Shown in pieces: positions 19,022-30,832 of a DNA stretch of 64,000 nt (its first letter is position 1; each line of letters opens with the position of its first letter). The stretch is from Bullifex porci (GTDB lineage Bacteria; Spirochaetota; Spirochaetia; Sphaerochaetales; Sphaerochaetaceae): positions 186,001 through 250,000 of the forward strand of contig NZ_VUNN01000001.1 of the NCBI RefSeq assembly GCF_009695635.1, written 5' to 3'. Made by a program: the position numbers and the translations under genes. Below the pieces are notes generated by a model, which saw only the letters and a program-made list of their open reading frames with translations, was not told the DNA's origin and did not search any database.

Positions 19022-19044
19022 AACAGCTCTAAATTAGAGCTGTT
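19022..19044 (-). terminator. rho-independent terminator of the EVPVEV-repeat gene
   Basis: Perfect 11-base inverted repeat AACAGCTCTAA/TTAGAGCTGTT followed on the minus strand by TTTTT. Confidence 0.8.
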
Positions 19045-19050
19045 AAATTT

Positions 19051-20331
19051 TTAAACTAAAGCTTTAACCTCATTTATTAAGCTTTCTGGTGTACTCTTAT
19101 CATTAAGAGCAGCTGATGAATAGTTAATAGGACCAAGATTAAACTCCTGACTCTTGATTATTTCATCAACCTCCGCCTTGTTTGCAAAGCAGAATACTAA
19201 AATAAATACATCATCCTGCTCGAAGATAAATGAGTACTCCTTAAGTGTTAGGTTGAGCTTATCTGCAGTTATTTCATTTGACTTTCTAATAGCTACTACT
19301 GTAAGGTCTGTAAAGTTTTCTCTTGCAAATGCAATTTCCTTATCAAGGAATGAATTAAGATCAAGAATCTCCTCTTTAGGTTCAACATAAACTTCTTTTT
19401 CAACTTCCTTAACAACTTCTACAGGGATCTCTCTTAATACCTCAACTGGTACTTCCTTAATAACTTCCTTGATAATCTCTTGAGGAACCTCCTTGATTAC
19501 TTCAACAGGAACCTCCTTAATTACCTCTTTAATAACCTCTACAGGTACATCTCTTAAAATTTCAACAGGTACTTCTTTGATTATCTCAACTGGTACTTCT
19601 TTTATAACTTCTACTGGAACCTCGACTTCCTTTATAGTTTCAACTGGTACCTCTTTGATAATCTCTACAGGAACTTCAACTTCCTTAACTACTTCAACTG
19701 GTGGTTCTTTAACTACCTCAATAGGCTTAATAACCTCTACAGGTACTTCCTTTAGAACCTCAACTGGTACTTCCTTAAGTACCTCAATAGGAACCTCTTT
19801 AATAACCTCTATTGGAATTTCGACTTCTTTAGTTACATCTCTAAGAATTTCAACTGGGACTTCTTTTACTACTTGTTTGATAACTTCTACTGGAACTTCC
19901 TTAACAACCTCAATTGGAACTTCCTTTACAACCTCTTTAACAACCTCAACTGGAACCTCTTTAATTATTGGTTCAGTATTATCAACAGCTGTTTTTTCAA
20001 TCTTTAATGAGGCCGCTCCTAAAGATATATTATCTGGGTCATCATTTGTACTTGATGAAACTGAGTTTGAATATGAATTAGGGGGTAATTTATCAATCTG
20101 ATCTTTAAAATCTTCCTCGTTTTGTTTTCCTGTAATTATTCCAATTTGAATAAGAGCAAGTCCAACAAGGATTGGAAATAACTTTACAAGTACATCATAT
20201 ACTTGCTTTTCTGTTATATTATACACAGGAACAATATATTTTAGGAATACTAAAGTAAATATTGCCAATACTATCAAGGATAATATAACGCTTGTAATAA
20301 CAAGCTTAGCCGTACTTTTTGTTTTAGACAT
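19051..20331 (-). CDS. membrane-anchored protein with EVPVEV repeats and cyclase-like C-terminal domain
   Basis: The start is the ATG at 20331, eight bases after GGAGG; the protein is 426 aa. Two hydrophobic helices (about 11-35 and 45-67) follow a basic N terminus, placing the rest in the cytoplasm if N-in. Residues about 123-325 consist of roughly 20 copies of KEVPVEVI and close variants, interrupted by four-residue units such as KEVV. Residues 330-426 (LTVVAIRKSNE... DVFILVF... INYSSAALNDKSTPESLINEV) resemble the end of a GGDEF/nucleotide-cyclase fold without the GGDEF residues. That assignment is my inference from pattern alone. No function is known; a long tether carrying a sensing or regulatory head is one reading. 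Confidence 0.65.
   Translation of the reverse strand: MSKTKSTAKLVITSVILSLIVLAIFTLVFLKYIVPVYNITEKQVYDVLVKLFPILVGLALIQIGIITGKQNEEDFKDQIDKLPPNSYSNSVSSSTNDDPDNISLGAASLKIEKTAVDNTEPIIKEVPVEVVKEVVKEVPIEVVKEVPVEVIKQVVKEVPVEILRDVTKEVEIPIEVIKEVPIEVLKEVPVEVLKEVPVEVIKPIEVVKEPPVEVVKEVEVPVEIIKEVPVETIKEVEVPVEVIKEVPVEIIKEVPVEILRDVPVEVIKEVIKEVPVEVIKEVPQEIIKEVIKEVPVEVLREIPVEVVKEVEKEVYVEPKEEILDLNSFLDKEIAFARENFTDLTVVAIRKSNEITADKLNLTLKEYSFIFEQDDVFILVFCFANKAEVDEIIKSQEFNLGPINYSSAALNDKSTPESLINEVKALV
19360..19965 (-). repeat. tandem coding repeat (EVPVEV units)
   Basis: About 600 bp of imperfect 24-bp units with 12-bp insertions, encoding KEVPVEVI-like octapeptides. On the opposite strand the same repeats give a spurious Thr/Ser/Gly-rich open frame, which is not a gene. 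Confidence 0.85.
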
Positions 20332-20398
20332 GTAAAAGGCCTCCAAAGTTCTATACAAACATAGGTACTTATTATTATTATACATATGAGAGGAATCT

Positions 20399-20875
20399 AT
20401 GACAATAAAAAAACTTTTATTGATGCTATTGTGTTTTCTTATTCCATGTGTATTTCTCATAACAATTTTTGGTGAAAATGGTTATTTGGTCAACCGTAGC
20501 CTAGAAAAAAGATATGAAGCTTTAAAGCAAAAGGAAGAGCTATATTTAGTTAAAGTTGCTTCATTAACTCAGCAATATGAACAGCTAGATGAAAACAGTG
20601 CTATGGATGATTTAGCTCTTTCTCTTGGCTACAATAGAGAAGGGGAGAAGGTCTTTTATTTCCAGGAACCCGATGTAGAATATAGTGAAAATACTGTATA
20701 TAAGGATGATTTACCTCAAATATACCATGGTATGAGTTTATCTTTAATTTTTTTAATTTCTTTAGCAATTTGCTTTGTTTGCTCTATTTTAATTTTAGTG
20801 CTATTTAGGCACAAGAGTAATGATGAGAGTGATGTTTATAGAGGAGATAATTATCATGAAGACTATGATTTTTGA
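20399..20875 (+). CDS. FtsB/DivIC-like septum formation protein
   Basis: A 158-residue protein with an N-terminal membrane helix (IKKLLLMLLCFLIPCVFLITIFG), then GENGYLVNRSLEKRYEALKQKEELYLVKVASLTQQYEQL. This is the short periplasmic coiled coil that FtsB/DivIC proteins use to bind FtsL and FtsQ. DLALSLGYNREGEKVFYF is the small globular end typical of the family. Unlike classical FtsB it has a second membrane helix (SLILFLISLAICFVCSILIL) and an acidic cytoplasmic tail. GAGAGGAA precedes the ATG. It overlaps tsaC by 20 bases. Confidence 0.75.
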   Translation: MTIKKLLLMLLCFLIPCVFLITIFGENGYLVNRSLEKRYEALKQKEELYLVKVASLTQQYEQLDENSAMDDLALSLGYNREGEKVFYFQEPDVEYSENTVYKDDLPQIYHGMSLSLIFLISLAICFVCSILILVLFRHKSNDESDVYRGDNYHEDYDF

Positions 20876-21422
20876 TTCTTGCAATAATATAATTGATAGT
20901 GTTTGTAAGCTTTTAGTAGATAATAAAATAGGTGCTATTCCTTGTGATACTATTTATGGCTTTTCTGGTATAGCTAATGAGATTACAAAGGATTATATTT
21001 TTGAAATAAAGCAAAGACCTCAAAGTAAAAATCTTATTACACTTATGAGCCTTGATGAATTAAAGAAATCCTCTTTAATTGTACCTCCTATACTCTATGA
21101 TATTTATCCTGCACCTTTAACAGCAATTTTAAGGGATGAGGATAGTGGTAATACTGTTGCAGTTAGAGTCCCTAATGATAGCTTTATAGGTGAGATTATT
21201 AAGAAGGTTGGACCAATTTGGTCAACTAGTGTAAATATTTCAGGTCAGCCAAGCTTAACTACCTTTGATGAAATATTAGCTGTCTTTGATAGTAAAGTAG
21301 ATTTTATAGTTAAAAAGAATATAGGGTCGAAAGGATTACCATCGACCCTAGTTGATTTTTCAAGCAGTGAAATTAAGATTCTAAGACAAGGATCCTTTGA
21401 TATAAAGCCTTATCTTATTTAA
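20856..21422 (+). CDS. tsaC: threonylcarbamoyl-AMP synthase (YrdC/Sua5 family)
   Basis: Makes threonylcarbamoyl-AMP for the t6A37 modification of ANN-decoding tRNAs. The YrdC domain is clear: IPCDTIYGFSGIA near residue 30, FEIKQRPQSKNLITL, then TVAVRVPND and WSTSVNISGQPS. At 188 aa it lacks the C-terminal Sua5 domain. I start it at 20856, where AGAGGAG lies nine bases upstream; frames further upstream overlap ftsB-like without a ribosome site. The family also includes YciO, so confidence in the exact function is not absolute. Confidence 0.85.
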   Translation: MKTMIFDSCNNIIDSVCKLLVDNKIGAIPCDTIYGFSGIANEITKDYIFEIKQRPQSKNLITLMSLDELKKSSLIVPPILYDIYPAPLTAILRDEDSGNTVAVRVPNDSFIGEIIKKVGPIWSTSVNISGQPSLTTFDEILAVFDSKVDFIVKKNIGSKGLPSTLVDFSSSEIKILRQGSFDIKPYLI

Positions 21423-22722
21423 TCTTTCTTGCTTCGAAATAGTATCTCTTTTCATTTGCATGCCCAATACTAAAGGTCTTTCTTGGGAATGCTCTATCAT
21501 GCAGGATAGATTCAAAGAAGGTTTCCTTTGATACCTCTGGTAATATGATACCTGCATTATTGCTCTTTCGTCCAAGCTCCTCAGTTACATCCATACCATG
21601 GATATAGTCTATGTCAGCTTTTTTATTTGGAACTAAATCATCAATAACAAGCTGCATAGTACCTGCTGAGGTAGAGCTATTTGGATTTTTCATTGTATAA
21701 ACAAAGTATCCTGTGCTATCGATATATCCAAAGCTTTGTGAGCCCTTGTTTATTTCACTCTTTATTTCTTCAAGATCCTTTACCTCCTTTACGCTAAAGC
21801 CTTCTGCAGTCTTTTCAAGGGAGGCATCAAAATCCTTTCTATCTAAATTAAAGAAGACTCTATGAATTGGCTCGAAGAAGAGAGCTTCATCAAAGATATT
21901 CTCAAGCTCTACTAATGCATAACGAGCAGGATTTGTTTCCTTTTCAGCTTCATTAAGATTTGCTTTTATATCTTCCCACTGGCTCTTAGCTGTTGCAAGG
22001 CTATGGTTACCATCTCCCATTGCAAATAGTAAAGGGTTATTAGGGTTTAGGGATTTAGTTAATTCTTTAAAGCCCTCGAGGATTGATAAGAAATCTTCTT
22101 CCTTATTAACTAAATATCCTTTAAGATGACCACCATTCATCATTAATGGAGTGTCATATACAACCTCTAGTGAAGCTTTTTTACTTACTAAAGGCTCTAT
22201 AATCTTTCTTCTTTCGTCACTAAGCAATACCATAATGTGAGGAAGCTCTAGTGGAGCATTTTTTCTAATTTCCTTTCTAGGTGGAATTCTTGATAAAATT
22301 GTTCCCTCAGTTGCTCTAATTGGGGTTACTGAATCTGGTGCATATGAATACTTTTCTAGATCAAGTGCTGCCATTAAGCCATAACGAGTACCACTTTCTG
22401 TAGTTCTTTCAACTAAAATAAAGCAATCGTTAAGGGTTCTAAAAACACCTTCATCAAGGTATTTTTGCATTGCATCATTAATGCTTTTAATTCTTTCATC
22501 CTTATCACTATCCTCAAGGTAGCACTCAGGGAAGATAAGATTATCTGTGGATGGCGCACCCTTACAATATTCTTCTACTTCCTTCCAATATTCCTTTTGG
22601 CTAGTAAATTGGTCACATGCTACTACTGCCCATTTCTTTTGATCAATTCCAACGTTTGGAATTAAAATGTCTGTAGGAATAGCTCCAATTTGTTTGAACT
22701 CATTTAAAATTTCTTTTTTCAT
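21415..22722 (-). CDS. DUF1015 family protein
   Basis: A 435-residue cytoplasmic protein of the DUF1015 family, found widely in anaerobes and of unknown activity. Family landmarks are VACDQFTSQKEYW, PPRKEIRKNAPLELPH, PLMMNGGHLKGYLV, LFAMGDGNHSLATAKSQWE and NPARYALVELENI. The start at 22722 follows GAGG by seven bases. The 3' ends of this gene and tsaC overlap by eight bases. The GDGNHS motif looks catalytic or ligand-binding, but nothing more can be stated. Confidence 0.88.
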   Translation of the reverse strand: MKKEILNEFKQIGAIPTDILIPNVGIDQKKWAVVACDQFTSQKEYWKEVEEYCKGAPSTDNLIFPECYLEDSDKDERIKSINDAMQKYLDEGVFRTLNDCFILVERTTESGTRYGLMAALDLEKYSYAPDSVTPIRATEGTILSRIPPRKEIRKNAPLELPHIMVLLSDERRKIIEPLVSKKASLEVVYDTPLMMNGGHLKGYLVNKEEDFLSILEGFKELTKSLNPNNPLLFAMGDGNHSLATAKSQWEDIKANLNEAEKETNPARYALVELENIFDEALFFEPIHRVFFNLDRKDFDASLEKTAEGFSVKEVKDLEEIKSEINKGSQSFGYIDSTGYFVYTMKNPNSSTSAGTMQLVIDDLVPNKKADIDYIHGMDVTEELGRKSNNAGIILPEVSKETFFESILHDRAFPRKTFSIGHANEKRYYFEARKIK

Positions 22723-22807
22723 CAAATACCTCAACAAAAAATAGTATTTCCATAAATATCATATGCATAAATAATAGTTTTTCACAAGAAAAATATTTAA
22801 ATAATAA

Positions 22808-23798: not shown

Positions 23799-25409
23799 AT
23801 GATTGATGAAGAGTATAATAAGATACTAAAACAATATCATAAGGTTTCAGAGAGGCATATTTTAGCCGTTGAAAGTGATATGCCTTATTCTGATATACTT
23901 CAAGTTGTAACTCTTTCAGATAAAATACGAAAAGCAGGAAACGAACTTGTAGCTCTTATGAGAAAGAATTATGAGCAACTTCTACGTACAAAGAGATACC
24001 GCAAGCTACTTGTTTTGTATGGTAACACCGGAGATAAAAATAAACGTAAGGATTTAGCTAATCAGCTTAGCGAAATGCAGAAAGACTATAATGTCACATG
24101 GGATTATTGTAGAAAATCCATGATTCCAATAGGTAAAAAATATGGAATAGATGCTGTTTTTGCCTTAACTAAAGCTGAGGATATTTGGGGAGGTGTAGAG
24201 AAATGCTTGTATGGGAGAGGAGCAACAATTCACTTCTCTAAATACGGAGAACTGCCTTGCATCAGATCAAAACAGATAAATCGTGGTATACCAATGTCTG
24301 TAAAGGAAGAGCAGCTACAATTCAAACTTGGTAAGATTAATTTTGGAATAAAGGTAGTTGATAGATTTCAACGAGATGAGGTTAATGCAATTGTGTCCTA
24401 CCTTGCTGAATCTGAAAGCATAGATAGAAAAGCGGTTAATACTTTCAAGGAAGATGGCCGTTGCATAGACACATACAGGCCATGTTATGCAACGCTTGTA
24501 CCTAAAATAATAAGAGGCAAATACAGGGTATATTTACACCTGGCCATTGAAGGTAAGTCAAAACCAAAATACAACAGGGATGGCAGTCTCCGACATAAGT
24601 ATGGTAAAGGTATTATAGGTGCTGATATTGGTACACAGACTGTTGCGTATACATCTAATACAGAGGTAGGCTTGAAAAATCTTTCAGAGCGTGGCAATAG
24701 TATTCAAACATCAGAGAGGAAAGAACGACTACTCCATCGTGCGATGGATAGGTCAAGACGAGCTACTAATCCTCAAAACTATAACGATGATGGTAGTATT
24801 AAAAAAGGTCGTAAGGATTGGAAATATTCAAATCATTACAAAAAGCTGAAAGACAAATATTATGAATTATGTCGAATCAATGCAGTAAATAGACAACTTG
24901 CAATAAACGAGGATGCAAATCATTTACGTAGTTTAGCTAATACATTTGTAACTGAAGAGAAAAATGCAAGCAAGCTCATGAAGCGAGCTAAAGAAACCAC
25001 AAAAAATGAAAAAGGTAAATTCAATAAGAAAAAGAGATTTGGCAAAACAATAAAGAACAGGTGTCCTTCTAAATTTCAGACCACTGTACAAAAGAAATTT
25101 GAAGTGACAGGCGGTACATATATCGAGGTTTCTAATAATTATAGAGCATCACAATATGACCATACTGCGGATGATTATATCAAGAAGAAGCTATCTGATA
25201 GATTGTATAAACTTCGTAGTGGTACCGAGGTGCAGAGAGATTGGTATTCATCATTCTTACTCTATTGTTACGATTATAGAACAAACAGCATAGACAAAAA
25301 TAAATGCAATATGGAGTTTGGAAGATTCTACAATATGGAGAAAAAACTAATAGAAAGGATTAAGGTTAATAAGATTAAAGTATTGAATAGTGGAATTAAA
25401 ATAGGTTAA
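23799..25409 (+). CDS. tnpB: TnpB-like RNA-guided nuclease homologue (no zinc ribbon)
   Basis: A 536-residue member of the OrfB/TnpB group. GADIGTQTVAY (about residue 275) is the RuvC-I Asp; EVQRDWYSSFLL near residue 475 occupies the place of the DRDVNAA RuvC-III Asp. The Cys4 zinc ribbon that normally precedes the third motif is absent, replaced by a segment reading SQYDHTADDYIKKKLSDRL. A similar Cys-less type is common in clostridial genomes. The middle RuvC Glu is not obvious to me. AGGAAGGA precedes the ATG. The codon and base use match the host, so this element is older or better adapted than the GC-rich one at 36 kb. Activity is uncertain. Confidence 0.75.
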   Translation: MIDEEYNKILKQYHKVSERHILAVESDMPYSDILQVVTLSDKIRKAGNELVALMRKNYEQLLRTKRYRKLLVLYGNTGDKNKRKDLANQLSEMQKDYNVTWDYCRKSMIPIGKKYGIDAVFALTKAEDIWGGVEKCLYGRGATIHFSKYGELPCIRSKQINRGIPMSVKEEQLQFKLGKINFGIKVVDRFQRDEVNAIVSYLAESESIDRKAVNTFKEDGRCIDTYRPCYATLVPKIIRGKYRVYLHLAIEGKSKPKYNRDGSLRHKYGKGIIGADIGTQTVAYTSNTEVGLKNLSERGNSIQTSERKERLLHRAMDRSRRATNPQNYNDDGSIKKGRKDWKYSNHYKKLKDKYYELCRINAVNRQLAINEDANHLRSLANTFVTEEKNASKLMKRAKETTKNEKGKFNKKKRFGKTIKNRCPSKFQTTVQKKFEVTGGTYIEVSNNYRASQYDHTADDYIKKKLSDRLYKLRSGTEVQRDWYSSFLLYCYDYRTNSIDKNKCNMEFGRFYNMEKKLIERIKVNKIKVLNSGIKIG

Positions 25410-28248: not shown

Positions 28249-28375
28249 GTATCAAAAATTTTCTAATTTTTAATATTTTTTTCGTATCTTAATTTGACTC
28301 TTCGTGTTATATTGTAACAGAGAACATTTTCTTAAAACAAAAATAAACAATCGTTCGTTGTTAGGAGGAAGACAC

Positions 28376-30832
28376 GTGAATCGTTTTACTAAAACACTGT
28401 CAACTTTAGTTCTTGTCGTTATGGTTGCCCTCTCTCTTATCGGTTGTCAGAGTACATCTGCTCCAGTAGAGGTTACACCTGAAATTGTAGTTCCAGAAGC
28501 TGTACCAGTAGCTGAAGTTCCTGTAGTTGAGGAACCAGCACCAGTAGTAGCTCCAGAACCAGAACCAGAACCAGAACCAACAGTTGAAGAACAGCCTGTT
28601 TATGGATCAGTTTCTGTTTATGGCTATCCTATTTCTTATAAAGTTGTAACAGGTCAGGCTACAATTAGCTATCCTTCATTCGTTACAGATGAAGAAGTAG
28701 TTGATTTCTTAAGCTATTTTGCTGACAAGTATGGTGCTTTAGTTCAAGGTACTGTATTCGAAATTGCTGCACCAGGTACTGTAAATGTTTATTTCGATAA
28801 GGCTGCATCATATGCTGATATCGAGACAGTTGGTGGTTTAGCATTAGATACTCTCTTTGAATATGTTAACCAGTTATTTGCTGCTCCAGCAGTAGAAGAA
28901 GCTCCAGTTGTTGAAGAACCAGCACCTGTAGTTGAAGAGCCAGCTCCAGTTGAAACAAAATATTCAGGTTCAGTTTCTGTATTTGGATATCCTGTTCGCT
29001 ATGAAGCTCAGCTCGGTAAGGTATTCATTGATTACCCAAGCTTTATTACTGATGAAGATGCAACATCATTCTTTGCTTTTATTGCTAACAGATATAGCGC
29101 ATATGCTAATTTAGTTACATACAAGCTTACTGGTGATTCAAGTGTTGAATTTTATTTCTCAAAGGATGCTTCTTTTGATGATCTTTTAGCAGTTGCTAGC
29201 ATGCTCGCTGGTGATTTAGTTGACTATGTAACTGGCTTATTTGCTGCTCCAGCTGTTGAAGAACCAGCTCCTGTAGTTGAAGAGCCTGTAGCAGAAGAAC
29301 CAGCAGTTGTTGAGGAACCAGAGGTTGTATATCCATATGGCGTTAAGGCAATTGTAAAGAATGCTCAGGGTGATACAGAATTTGACCTCTTTGTAGTTCA
29401 TACAAATGACGTTCATGCTAGAATTGTTCCAGCTGATGGTGGTATGGGTTATGCTAAGCTTGCTACATTAGTAAAAGCAGGTAAGGCTATTACAGATAAC
29501 ATCCTCGTACTTGATGCTGGTGACGTTACACACGGAACTAACTTAGCTAATATGTTCAAGGGCCAGACAGTTGGTGAGATCCTTGCAATGATTGGTTATG
29601 ATGCAGTAGCTCCAGGTAACCATGACTTCAACTATGGTGCAGAGAACCTTAAAGAGCTTGCTAAGCTTTCTGAAGCAATTGGCGGACCAAAAGTTCTTTC
29701 TGCAAACATCCTTACTGAAGATGGTTACAATGTATTCCAGCCATATCAGATTTATGACTTCAATGGATTCAAGGTTTGTGTATTCGGTCTCACAACACCT
29801 GATACAAAGACTAAGGCTCATCCAAAGTATACAGAAGGCTTAACATTCTGGTCTGATGAAGTACTTGCAGCAGCTCAGTATGCAGTTGATTTAGCTAATG
29901 AATATTGTGATTACGTAATCGTACTTGGTCACTTCGGTCTTGATGAAGATGGTTCAAGTGGTATCACAAGTAAGTATGTATGTGAAAACATCAAGGGTAT
30001 CGACCTCTTTGTTGATGGTCACAGCCACACAACTCTTCCAGAAGGACTTAAGGTTGGTGATACATTAATCGTACAGGCTGGTGAGTACCTTAAGAATGTT
30101 GGTCTCGTACAGATCCATGTAAAGGATGGTAAGGTAACAGCTACATATCCAATGCTCATTACAGCAGCTGATGTTCTTGACCCTGCTAATAGTGACTTAG
30201 CTAAGTCATTTGGTATTACAGAAGTTCCAGATGATCCTGAAGTTTCAGCTTATATTGCTAAGGCACAGGATCAGCTCAACGACATCCTCAATGTTGTAAT
30301 TGCTGAAGTTCCTGTTAACCTTGATGGTGAAAGAGCTAATGTAAGAACAAAGCAGACTAACCTTTCTAAGCTTGTTTGTCAGGCAATGACAGATGAGACA
30401 GGTGCTGACTTCACAATCACTAACGGTGGTGGTATCAGAGCATCTATCAAGGCTGGTAAGGTAACTCTCGGTGATGTAAACAATGTACTCCCATTCACAA
30501 ATACAATTGCTGTATGTGAAATCACAGGTGCACAGGTTTACGAAGCTCTCGAGTTCGGTTACAGAATGCTCCCAGAGACAAATGGTGGATTTACTCAGAC
30601 AGACCTTAAGGTTGTATACTCTAAGTTCAGCCCAGCAGGTTCAAGAATTAAGAGAGTAGTTCTTCCTAATGGTGAAGTTATCGACAAGAATAAGACATAC
30701 TTAGTTGCTACAAATGACTTCTTAGCAGCTGGTGGTGACGGATTTACAATGTTCGGTAAGATCGTACAGTTAGGTAGACAGCTTAATGAAGTATTTGCTG
30801 ATTATCTCGCAAAGGTATATCCAGTTAAGTAA
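28376..30832 (+). CDS. lipoprotein: duplicated novel domain plus 5'-nucleotidase
   Basis: GTG start eight bases after AGGAGG; 818 aa. Lipobox LIGC with Cys24. Residues 30-74 are a Pro/Glu/Val linker. Residues 75-170 and 196-291 are two copies of a domain that starts YGSVSVYGYPISY and ends near LFAAP, joined by VVEEPAPVVEEP-type linkers. Residues about 336-818 are a UshA-like metallophosphoesterase plus C-terminal nucleotidase domain: VVHTNDVHAR (metal His/Asp), LDAGDVTHGTN, APGNHDFNYG, LGHFGLDEDG, DGHSHT, and TNGGGIRASI. It probably releases phosphate from nucleotides outside the inner membrane. I do not recognise the duplicated domain. C-ending codons suggest strong expression. Confidence 0.88.
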   Translation: MNRFTKTLSTLVLVVMVALSLIGCQSTSAPVEVTPEIVVPEAVPVAEVPVVEEPAPVVAPEPEPEPEPTVEEQPVYGSVSVYGYPISYKVVTGQATISYPSFVTDEEVVDFLSYFADKYGALVQGTVFEIAAPGTVNVYFDKAASYADIETVGGLALDTLFEYVNQLFAAPAVEEAPVVEEPAPVVEEPAPVETKYSGSVSVFGYPVRYEAQLGKVFIDYPSFITDEDATSFFAFIANRYSAYANLVTYKLTGDSSVEFYFSKDASFDDLLAVASMLAGDLVDYVTGLFAAPAVEEPAPVVEEPVAEEPAVVEEPEVVYPYGVKAIVKNAQGDTEFDLFVVHTNDVHARIVPADGGMGYAKLATLVKAGKAITDNILVLDAGDVTHGTNLANMFKGQTVGEILAMIGYDAVAPGNHDFNYGAENLKELAKLSEAIGGPKVLSANILTEDGYNVFQPYQIYDFNGFKVCVFGLTTPDTKTKAHPKYTEGLTFWSDEVLAAAQYAVDLANEYCDYVIVLGHFGLDEDGSSGITSKYVCENIKGIDLFVDGHSHTTLPEGLKVGDTLIVQAGEYLKNVGLVQIHVKDGKVTATYPMLITAADVLDPANSDLAKSFGITEVPDDPEVSAYIAKAQDQLNDILNVVIAEVPVNLDGERANVRTKQTNLSKLVCQAMTDETGADFTITNGGGIRASIKAGKVTLGDVNNVLPFTNTIAVCEITGAQVYEALEFGYRMLPETNGGFTQTDLKVVYSKFSPAGSRIKRVVLPNGEVIDKNKTYLVATNDFLAAGGDGFTMFGKIVQLGRQLNEVFADYLAKVYPVK

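Follow-up and report, generated by a model that had tools for sequence, protein, structure and literature searches.

A gene of Bullifex porci encodes a protein that we read, with a probability of about 60%, as a tethered adaptor: a two-helix anchor in the inner membrane that carries a dead GGDEF domain on an acidic, disordered leash. This reading is built on the anatomy of the protein, its predicted fold, the lost GGDEF signature, its conservation, the order of genes around it and the divergence of its linker, as found in the window (the whole stretch of 64,000 nucleotides that was analysed; Table 1) and in related genomes.

Table 1. Coordinates of the pseudo-GGDEF gene, its parts and its neighbours (positions in the window)
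Feature	Position	Strand	Basis
CDS, 426 aa: two TM helices, repeat linker, degenerate GGDEF domain	19051..20331	-	ORF reading, conservation, AlphaFold2
TM helix 1, ~residues 10-31	20239..20304	-	Sequence; AlphaFold2 helix 4-37; conserved in 114/139 family genomes
TM helix 2, ~residues 52-67	20131..20178	-	AlphaFold2 helix 41-81; family alignment
Repeat linker core, residues 124-319, 27 KE-V-P-V units, net charge -22, predicted disordered	19375..19962	-	
Degenerate GGDEF domain, residues 320-426, EQDDVF at signature loop	19054..19374	-	
Ribosome-binding site GGAGG, 8 nt before ATG	20340..20344	-	Sequence
Promoter-like site TTGTCA-17-TATAAT	20377..20405	-	Consensus match only
Terminator-like hairpin, 10-bp stem	19022..19044	.	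T-run follows on minus strand, downstream of gene
DivIC/FtsB-like, divergent neighbour	20399..20875	+	PF04977 E 7.5e-6, below curated cut-off; synteny
Sua5/YrdC-type gene, next in conserved neighbourhood	20820..21422	+	PF01300 E 6e-31; synteny
DUF1015 gene, third in conserved neighbourhood	21415..22737	-	PF06245 E 3e-60; synteny

The chosen start codon is where conservation begins in 14 relatives; a 469-residue reading from an upstream ATG lacks conservation support. Upstream of the gene, the promoter-like site matches at 11 of 12 positions, the best score of the region. AlphaFold2 (15 sequences) places two helices at the N terminus, bearing out the membrane tether proposed in the preliminary description, leaves residues 86–317 without structure (pLDDT mostly 32–45) and returns a C-terminal domain (pLDDT >90) with the order α-β-α-β-β-α-β-α. 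A highly conserved hairpin, VYxITExQVY..LxKLFPILxGL in the alignment, precedes TM helix 2. The N terminus is predicted to be cytoplasmic because it is lysine-rich; taken with the two-helix hairpin and the fact that GGDEF domains are cytoplasmic, this points to a protein with probably both ends inside, whose linker, carried between hairpin and GGDEF-type domain, would also lie in the cytoplasm. Pfam and NCBIfam scans of the whole protein assigned no family, and matches to MgtE_N and RTA1, on the linker and TM stretches, were weak, below cut-off and discarded.

Structure searches with VIA-align and Foldseek both place the C-terminal domain with GGDEF domains (best VIA-align match Z 13.4, rmsd 2.3, 104 residues; GGDEF or PelD fills all of the best 50 rows). 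From sequence alone, a profile built on 38 class members reaches the DosC GGDEF domain in the PDB (E 7e-10) and aligns with canonical spirochaete GGDEF domains at a probability of 94.7% (hhalign); the corresponding value for a genus-only profile, which is too thin, is 39.9%. By profile and predicted structure, then, the domain is a genuine GGDEF homologue that has lost its signature, much as the description of a degenerate cyclase-like head had it; structure prediction and profile search, which could have revealed a different fold, both returned GGDEF. The signature loop reads EQDDVF, and a GG[DE]EF loop occurs in none of the 38 aligned class members. The GGDEF model PF00990 has no match in the Bullifex porci protein up to E 1, and the best class member scanned scores 19.6 bits against a cut-off of 23.8. 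An RxxD I-site is likewise absent ahead of the signature loop, where the stretch KEYSFIFEQDDVF holds no arginine. In another family, a longer orthologue adopts the complete GGDEF fold (Z 20.3 to PleD). Orthologues outside the protein's own family retain a pair of motifs peculiar to them, SRNGR and DPEKYR, of which the former is lost in the clade whose linker has the EVPVEV form, Bullifex porci included. Conservation in the alignments is weaker across the C-terminal domain than across the membrane module, and it may therefore be the hairpin that does the work.

The N-terminal membrane module is present, nearly always once, in 114 of the 139 genomes of its own taxonomic family and in 15 of the 16 of its own genus, the Bullifex porci genome among them. 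The C-terminal domain extends further, to 268 of 395 class genomes and 102 of 133 Spirochaetia genera, usually once; the class-wide search found none in f19, a group of small genomes, while G211, a genome of 1,139,633 bases, carries the gene too. Most other families of the class have a domain of ~100 residues, predicted to mix helix and strand, between the two helices, and next comes an acidic linker. We considered whether the class-wide matches are ordinary GGDEF cross-hits and rejected this: within the class a single match stands out in most genomes, and it has two TM helices and a shared gene order, whereas outside the class each genome gives many weak matches. Judged by these comparisons, the protein is a member of an unnamed, mostly single-copy family across Spirochaetia, a membership that the preliminary description had overlooked. 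A literature search for a degenerate GGDEF transmembrane protein in Treponema found no paper.

Gene order divides the family into two arrangements. Sphaerochaetaceae-like genomes have the gene next to DivIC/FtsB-like, Sua5 and DUF1015 genes, and across most of the taxonomic family's genomes the DivIC/FtsB-like gene adjoins it; families other than the Sphaerochaetaceae-like ones do not share this neighbourhood. In most other families, the gene comes after a PF01973 gene and frequently overlaps it, which suggests that the two form a conserved unit in those spirochaete families; the PF01973 gene is annotated MptE-like (in NCBIfam, a weak relative of the flagellin-modification protein PseD). A Memo, MBL-fold or ABC auxiliary gene is nearby. 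At two loci, L157 and L158, neighbours of both kinds occur together, DivIC/DUF1015 on the one hand and MBL on the other; at L176 the MBL gene adjoining the orthologue is RNase Z. Together these observations link the two arrangements as orthologous. The overlap with PF01973 is seen at L153, L164, L172 and others, and L174 has two PF01973 genes in tandem. The DivIC/FtsB-like protein is a candidate partner, nominated purely by gene order; it has a second TM helix near its C terminus.

The family persists where c-di-GMP signalling cannot be recognised. Pfam models find no GGDEF, EAL, HD-GYP or PilZ domain in the Bullifex porci genome (96.7% complete), and no PilZ in any genome of the taxonomic family. 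Canonical GGDEF domains are missing from 40 of the 114 genomes with the membrane module, or from 35 (the closed genome G036 among them) once 3 truncated modules and 2 weak matches are removed, with the limits that diverged diguanylate cyclases falling short of E 0.001 escape the search and that, the genomes being mostly draft, absence from any single one is provisional. Conversely, 11 genomes of the family have canonical GGDEF domains without the membrane module. A gene kept by 35–40 relatives without GGDEF does not belong to a recognisable c-di-GMP network as an accessory, and we infer that its function is independent of c-di-GMP. For these reasons catalysis and c-di-GMP sensing by the Bullifex porci protein are unlikely.

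Between the two conserved ends lies a linker of marked regularity. Its 196-residue core can be divided into 27 units (eight residues in 17, four in 6, ten in 3 and six in 1), so that an earlier count of about 20 octapeptides with four-residue inserts was a fair one. The composition is V 32%, E 24.5%, K 13%, I 12% and P 11%, with A and G near zero; acid–base dyads number 29, where sequences shuffled at the same composition have 13, and [VI]P[VI] occurs 17 times, where they have 3.7. Hydrophobic residues were at first described as alternating, whereas their autocorrelation is negative at lag 2 and peaks at lags 4 and 8, which leaves no simple alternation. Nor are the units near-identical in DNA, as had been supposed: octapeptide units average 72% identity, none of the 105 pairs from 15 units shares an identical 24-mer, and third positions differ by 0.45, against 0.469 ± 0.025 for random synonymous codons. 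By this sequence measure the repeats are old as DNA and kept as peptide; with synonymous sites randomised, the argument from near-identical units to variable repeat number between strains fails, and the near-identical DNA units of a VNTR are not found in the linker.

The same region is predicted to be disordered, and probably is so in the cell: AlphaFold2 gives it no strands and neither a compact nor a coiled-coil form, in keeping with an extended or disordered repeat, although the low pLDDT follows also from a shallow, repetitive alignment. Fully extended at ~0.35 nm per residue it would reach ~68 nm, a figure of arithmetic only, as a disordered chain is far more compact. PDB sequence matches of the linker are confined to designed repeat proteins and a poly(A) polymerase, which we took as compositional, and a literature search on EVPVEV found no paper.

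Linker length ranges from 81 to 380 residues in the taxonomic family and from 105 to 262 in the genus, always with acidic character; the two closest relatives have 434 and 436 residues in all, compared with 426. Other members of the family have an E/P/A-rich linker or one made of another repeat, and the EVPVEV form is confined to one side of a single branch (support 92/98; recovered in 94% of bootstrap trees). The tree thus points to an EVPVEV linker that arose about once, from a different linker, within a spirochaete family, and comparison of the alignments marks the linker sequence as the replaceable part of the protein, a feature that the preliminary description missed. Three loci of one genus (L061, L062 and L085) have the same protein with another repetitive linker, of units NLDxxTxxRLxxYxxxQINxGLDFV. 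At L073 (G162:C57), a 1209-residue ORF starts with a weak membrane-module match and continues into very long acidic repeats of KWWEDF type.

In the adaptor reading, the conserved hairpin would fix the protein at the inner membrane, probably beside a partner, and the leash would give the pseudo-GGDEF domain a reach of up to tens of nanometres through the cytoplasm, where it would capture a protein partner and neither make nor read c-di-GMP. The KE-V-P-V repeats into which the leash was rewritten, about once in this lineage, would keep it extended, charged and free of helix. BcsE binds BcsQ via a degenerate GGDEF (PMC7439463), which is a precedent for a dead GGDEF as a protein-binding module, the putative role of the domain here. 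Degenerate GGDEFs can also sense nucleotides (BcsE, PelD; PMC7439463), and the protein could instead be a receptor of the PelD/BcsE kind, binding c-di-GMP, GTP or (p)ppGpp and signalling to a membrane partner. PelD is among the VIA-align matches, the SRNGR and DPEKYR pair conserved outside the clade suggests some ligand or contact, and GTP-sensing CC_3396 and the ATPase YybT are precedents, as cited in PMC12943098. A receptor nevertheless seems unlikely for a genome without a c-di-GMP-making domain, for a gene kept in the 40 genomes without canonical GGDEF, and for a domain whose clade has lost SRNGR and whose signature loop is preceded by no RxxD I-site. Very unlikely is a molecular ruler, in which repeat number would set a fixed reach from membrane to cytoplasmic target: the units are regular and the two closest relatives similar in size, but linker length varies widely in genus and family, and predicted disorder sets no distance. 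The linker had also been likened to a TonB spacer, and the order of membrane anchor, long low-complexity linker (Pro/Val/Glu/Lys-rich) and small C-terminal domain is indeed that of TonB and TolA. Those proteins have a single N-terminal TM helix and a linker that spans the periplasm, whereas here two TM helices are predicted, probably as a hairpin that brings the chain back to the cytoplasm; the C-terminal domain has another fold, that of GGDEF, and in relatives the folded extracytoplasmic domain sits between the two helices. This makes a TonB/TolA-like protein extremely unlikely, and we rejected it on topology, as we did the ruler on length spread; the linker is probably cytoplasmic and its sequence style is that of articulins and epiplastins.

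That style follows the published ABD-domain rules for articulins and epiplastins, proteins of protist membrane skeletons that have articulin-like counterparts in one bacterium, Caulobacter (PMC6212826). The linker has dyads with short strings, is V/I-rich and A/G-poor, carries a charge within the near-neutral or negative range and contains 13 VPV modules, where the rule is more than three. From this fit one may imagine the KE-V-P-V linkers of many molecules associating beneath the inner membrane into a mat that supports shape and has the hairpins as its anchors. The alveolin model IMCp (PF12314) passes its cut-off in four sister-genus genomes, with one match confirmed as lying inside the linker of an orthologue, and the same search also matches in Caulobacter; IMCp is a low-complexity model, so these matches may be compositional, and it has no match in the Bullifex porci protein. 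AlphaFold2, moreover, shows no strands in the linker, and in orthologues elsewhere the linker is unrelated, which means that the core function needs no ABD sequence. We regard such a mat as rather unlikely, and as distinctly unlikely the fuller proposal of a bacterial articulin, in which a self-associating KE-V-P-V spacer would build a membrane skeleton that is convergent with the epiplast of protists and carries its own membrane anchor. We know of no epiplast layer in such an organism. The likeness is best read as convergence in sequence style, without membership: KE dyads, V/I richness, A/G poverty, many VPV modules and ordinary head and tail domains are shared with articulins, alveolins, epiplastins and the Caulobacter proteins, but head and tail here are a bacterial TM hairpin and a pseudo-GGDEF, with no IMCp score.

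Returning to the adaptor, its C-terminal domain shares the fold of membrane-type GGDEF diguanylate cyclases (PF00990), and most of the class shares their layout too, with two TM helices, an extracytoplasmic domain between them and a cytoplasmic GGDEF. The Bullifex porci protein differs in its missing signature, shortened domain, long linker and lack of a Pfam match, and its own taxonomic family in having no extracytoplasmic domain. PelD and BcsE, the former a membrane protein, likewise use a catalytically dead GGDEF as effector or scaffold; they are c-di-GMP receptors, whereas the Pfam models find no domain making or degrading c-di-GMP in the Bullifex porci genome. GdpP/YybT combines two N-terminal TM helices with a degenerate GGDEF, as here, but its PAS and DHH/DHHA1 domains are absent from the Bullifex porci protein.

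A signature-less GGDEF kept without a recognisable c-di-GMP system is a test case for the GGDEF fold freed from c-di-GMP, in an unnamed protein spread across Spirochaetia and probably including G211. The switch of its linker to articulin-like sequence, with both ends conserved, amounts to a natural experiment on whether such a linker does anything beyond spacing.

Elsewhere in the window, positions 23799–25409 (+) encode a 536-residue protein with RuvC-like motifs (IIGADIGTQTVAY), which by eye resembles a TnpB-type nuclease and has no Pfam match to E 0.01. A 5'-nucleotidase-type lipoprotein (PF00149, PF02872) is encoded at 28304–30832 (+), and its N-terminal half has APAVEEPAPVVEEP linkers between two repeated domains.
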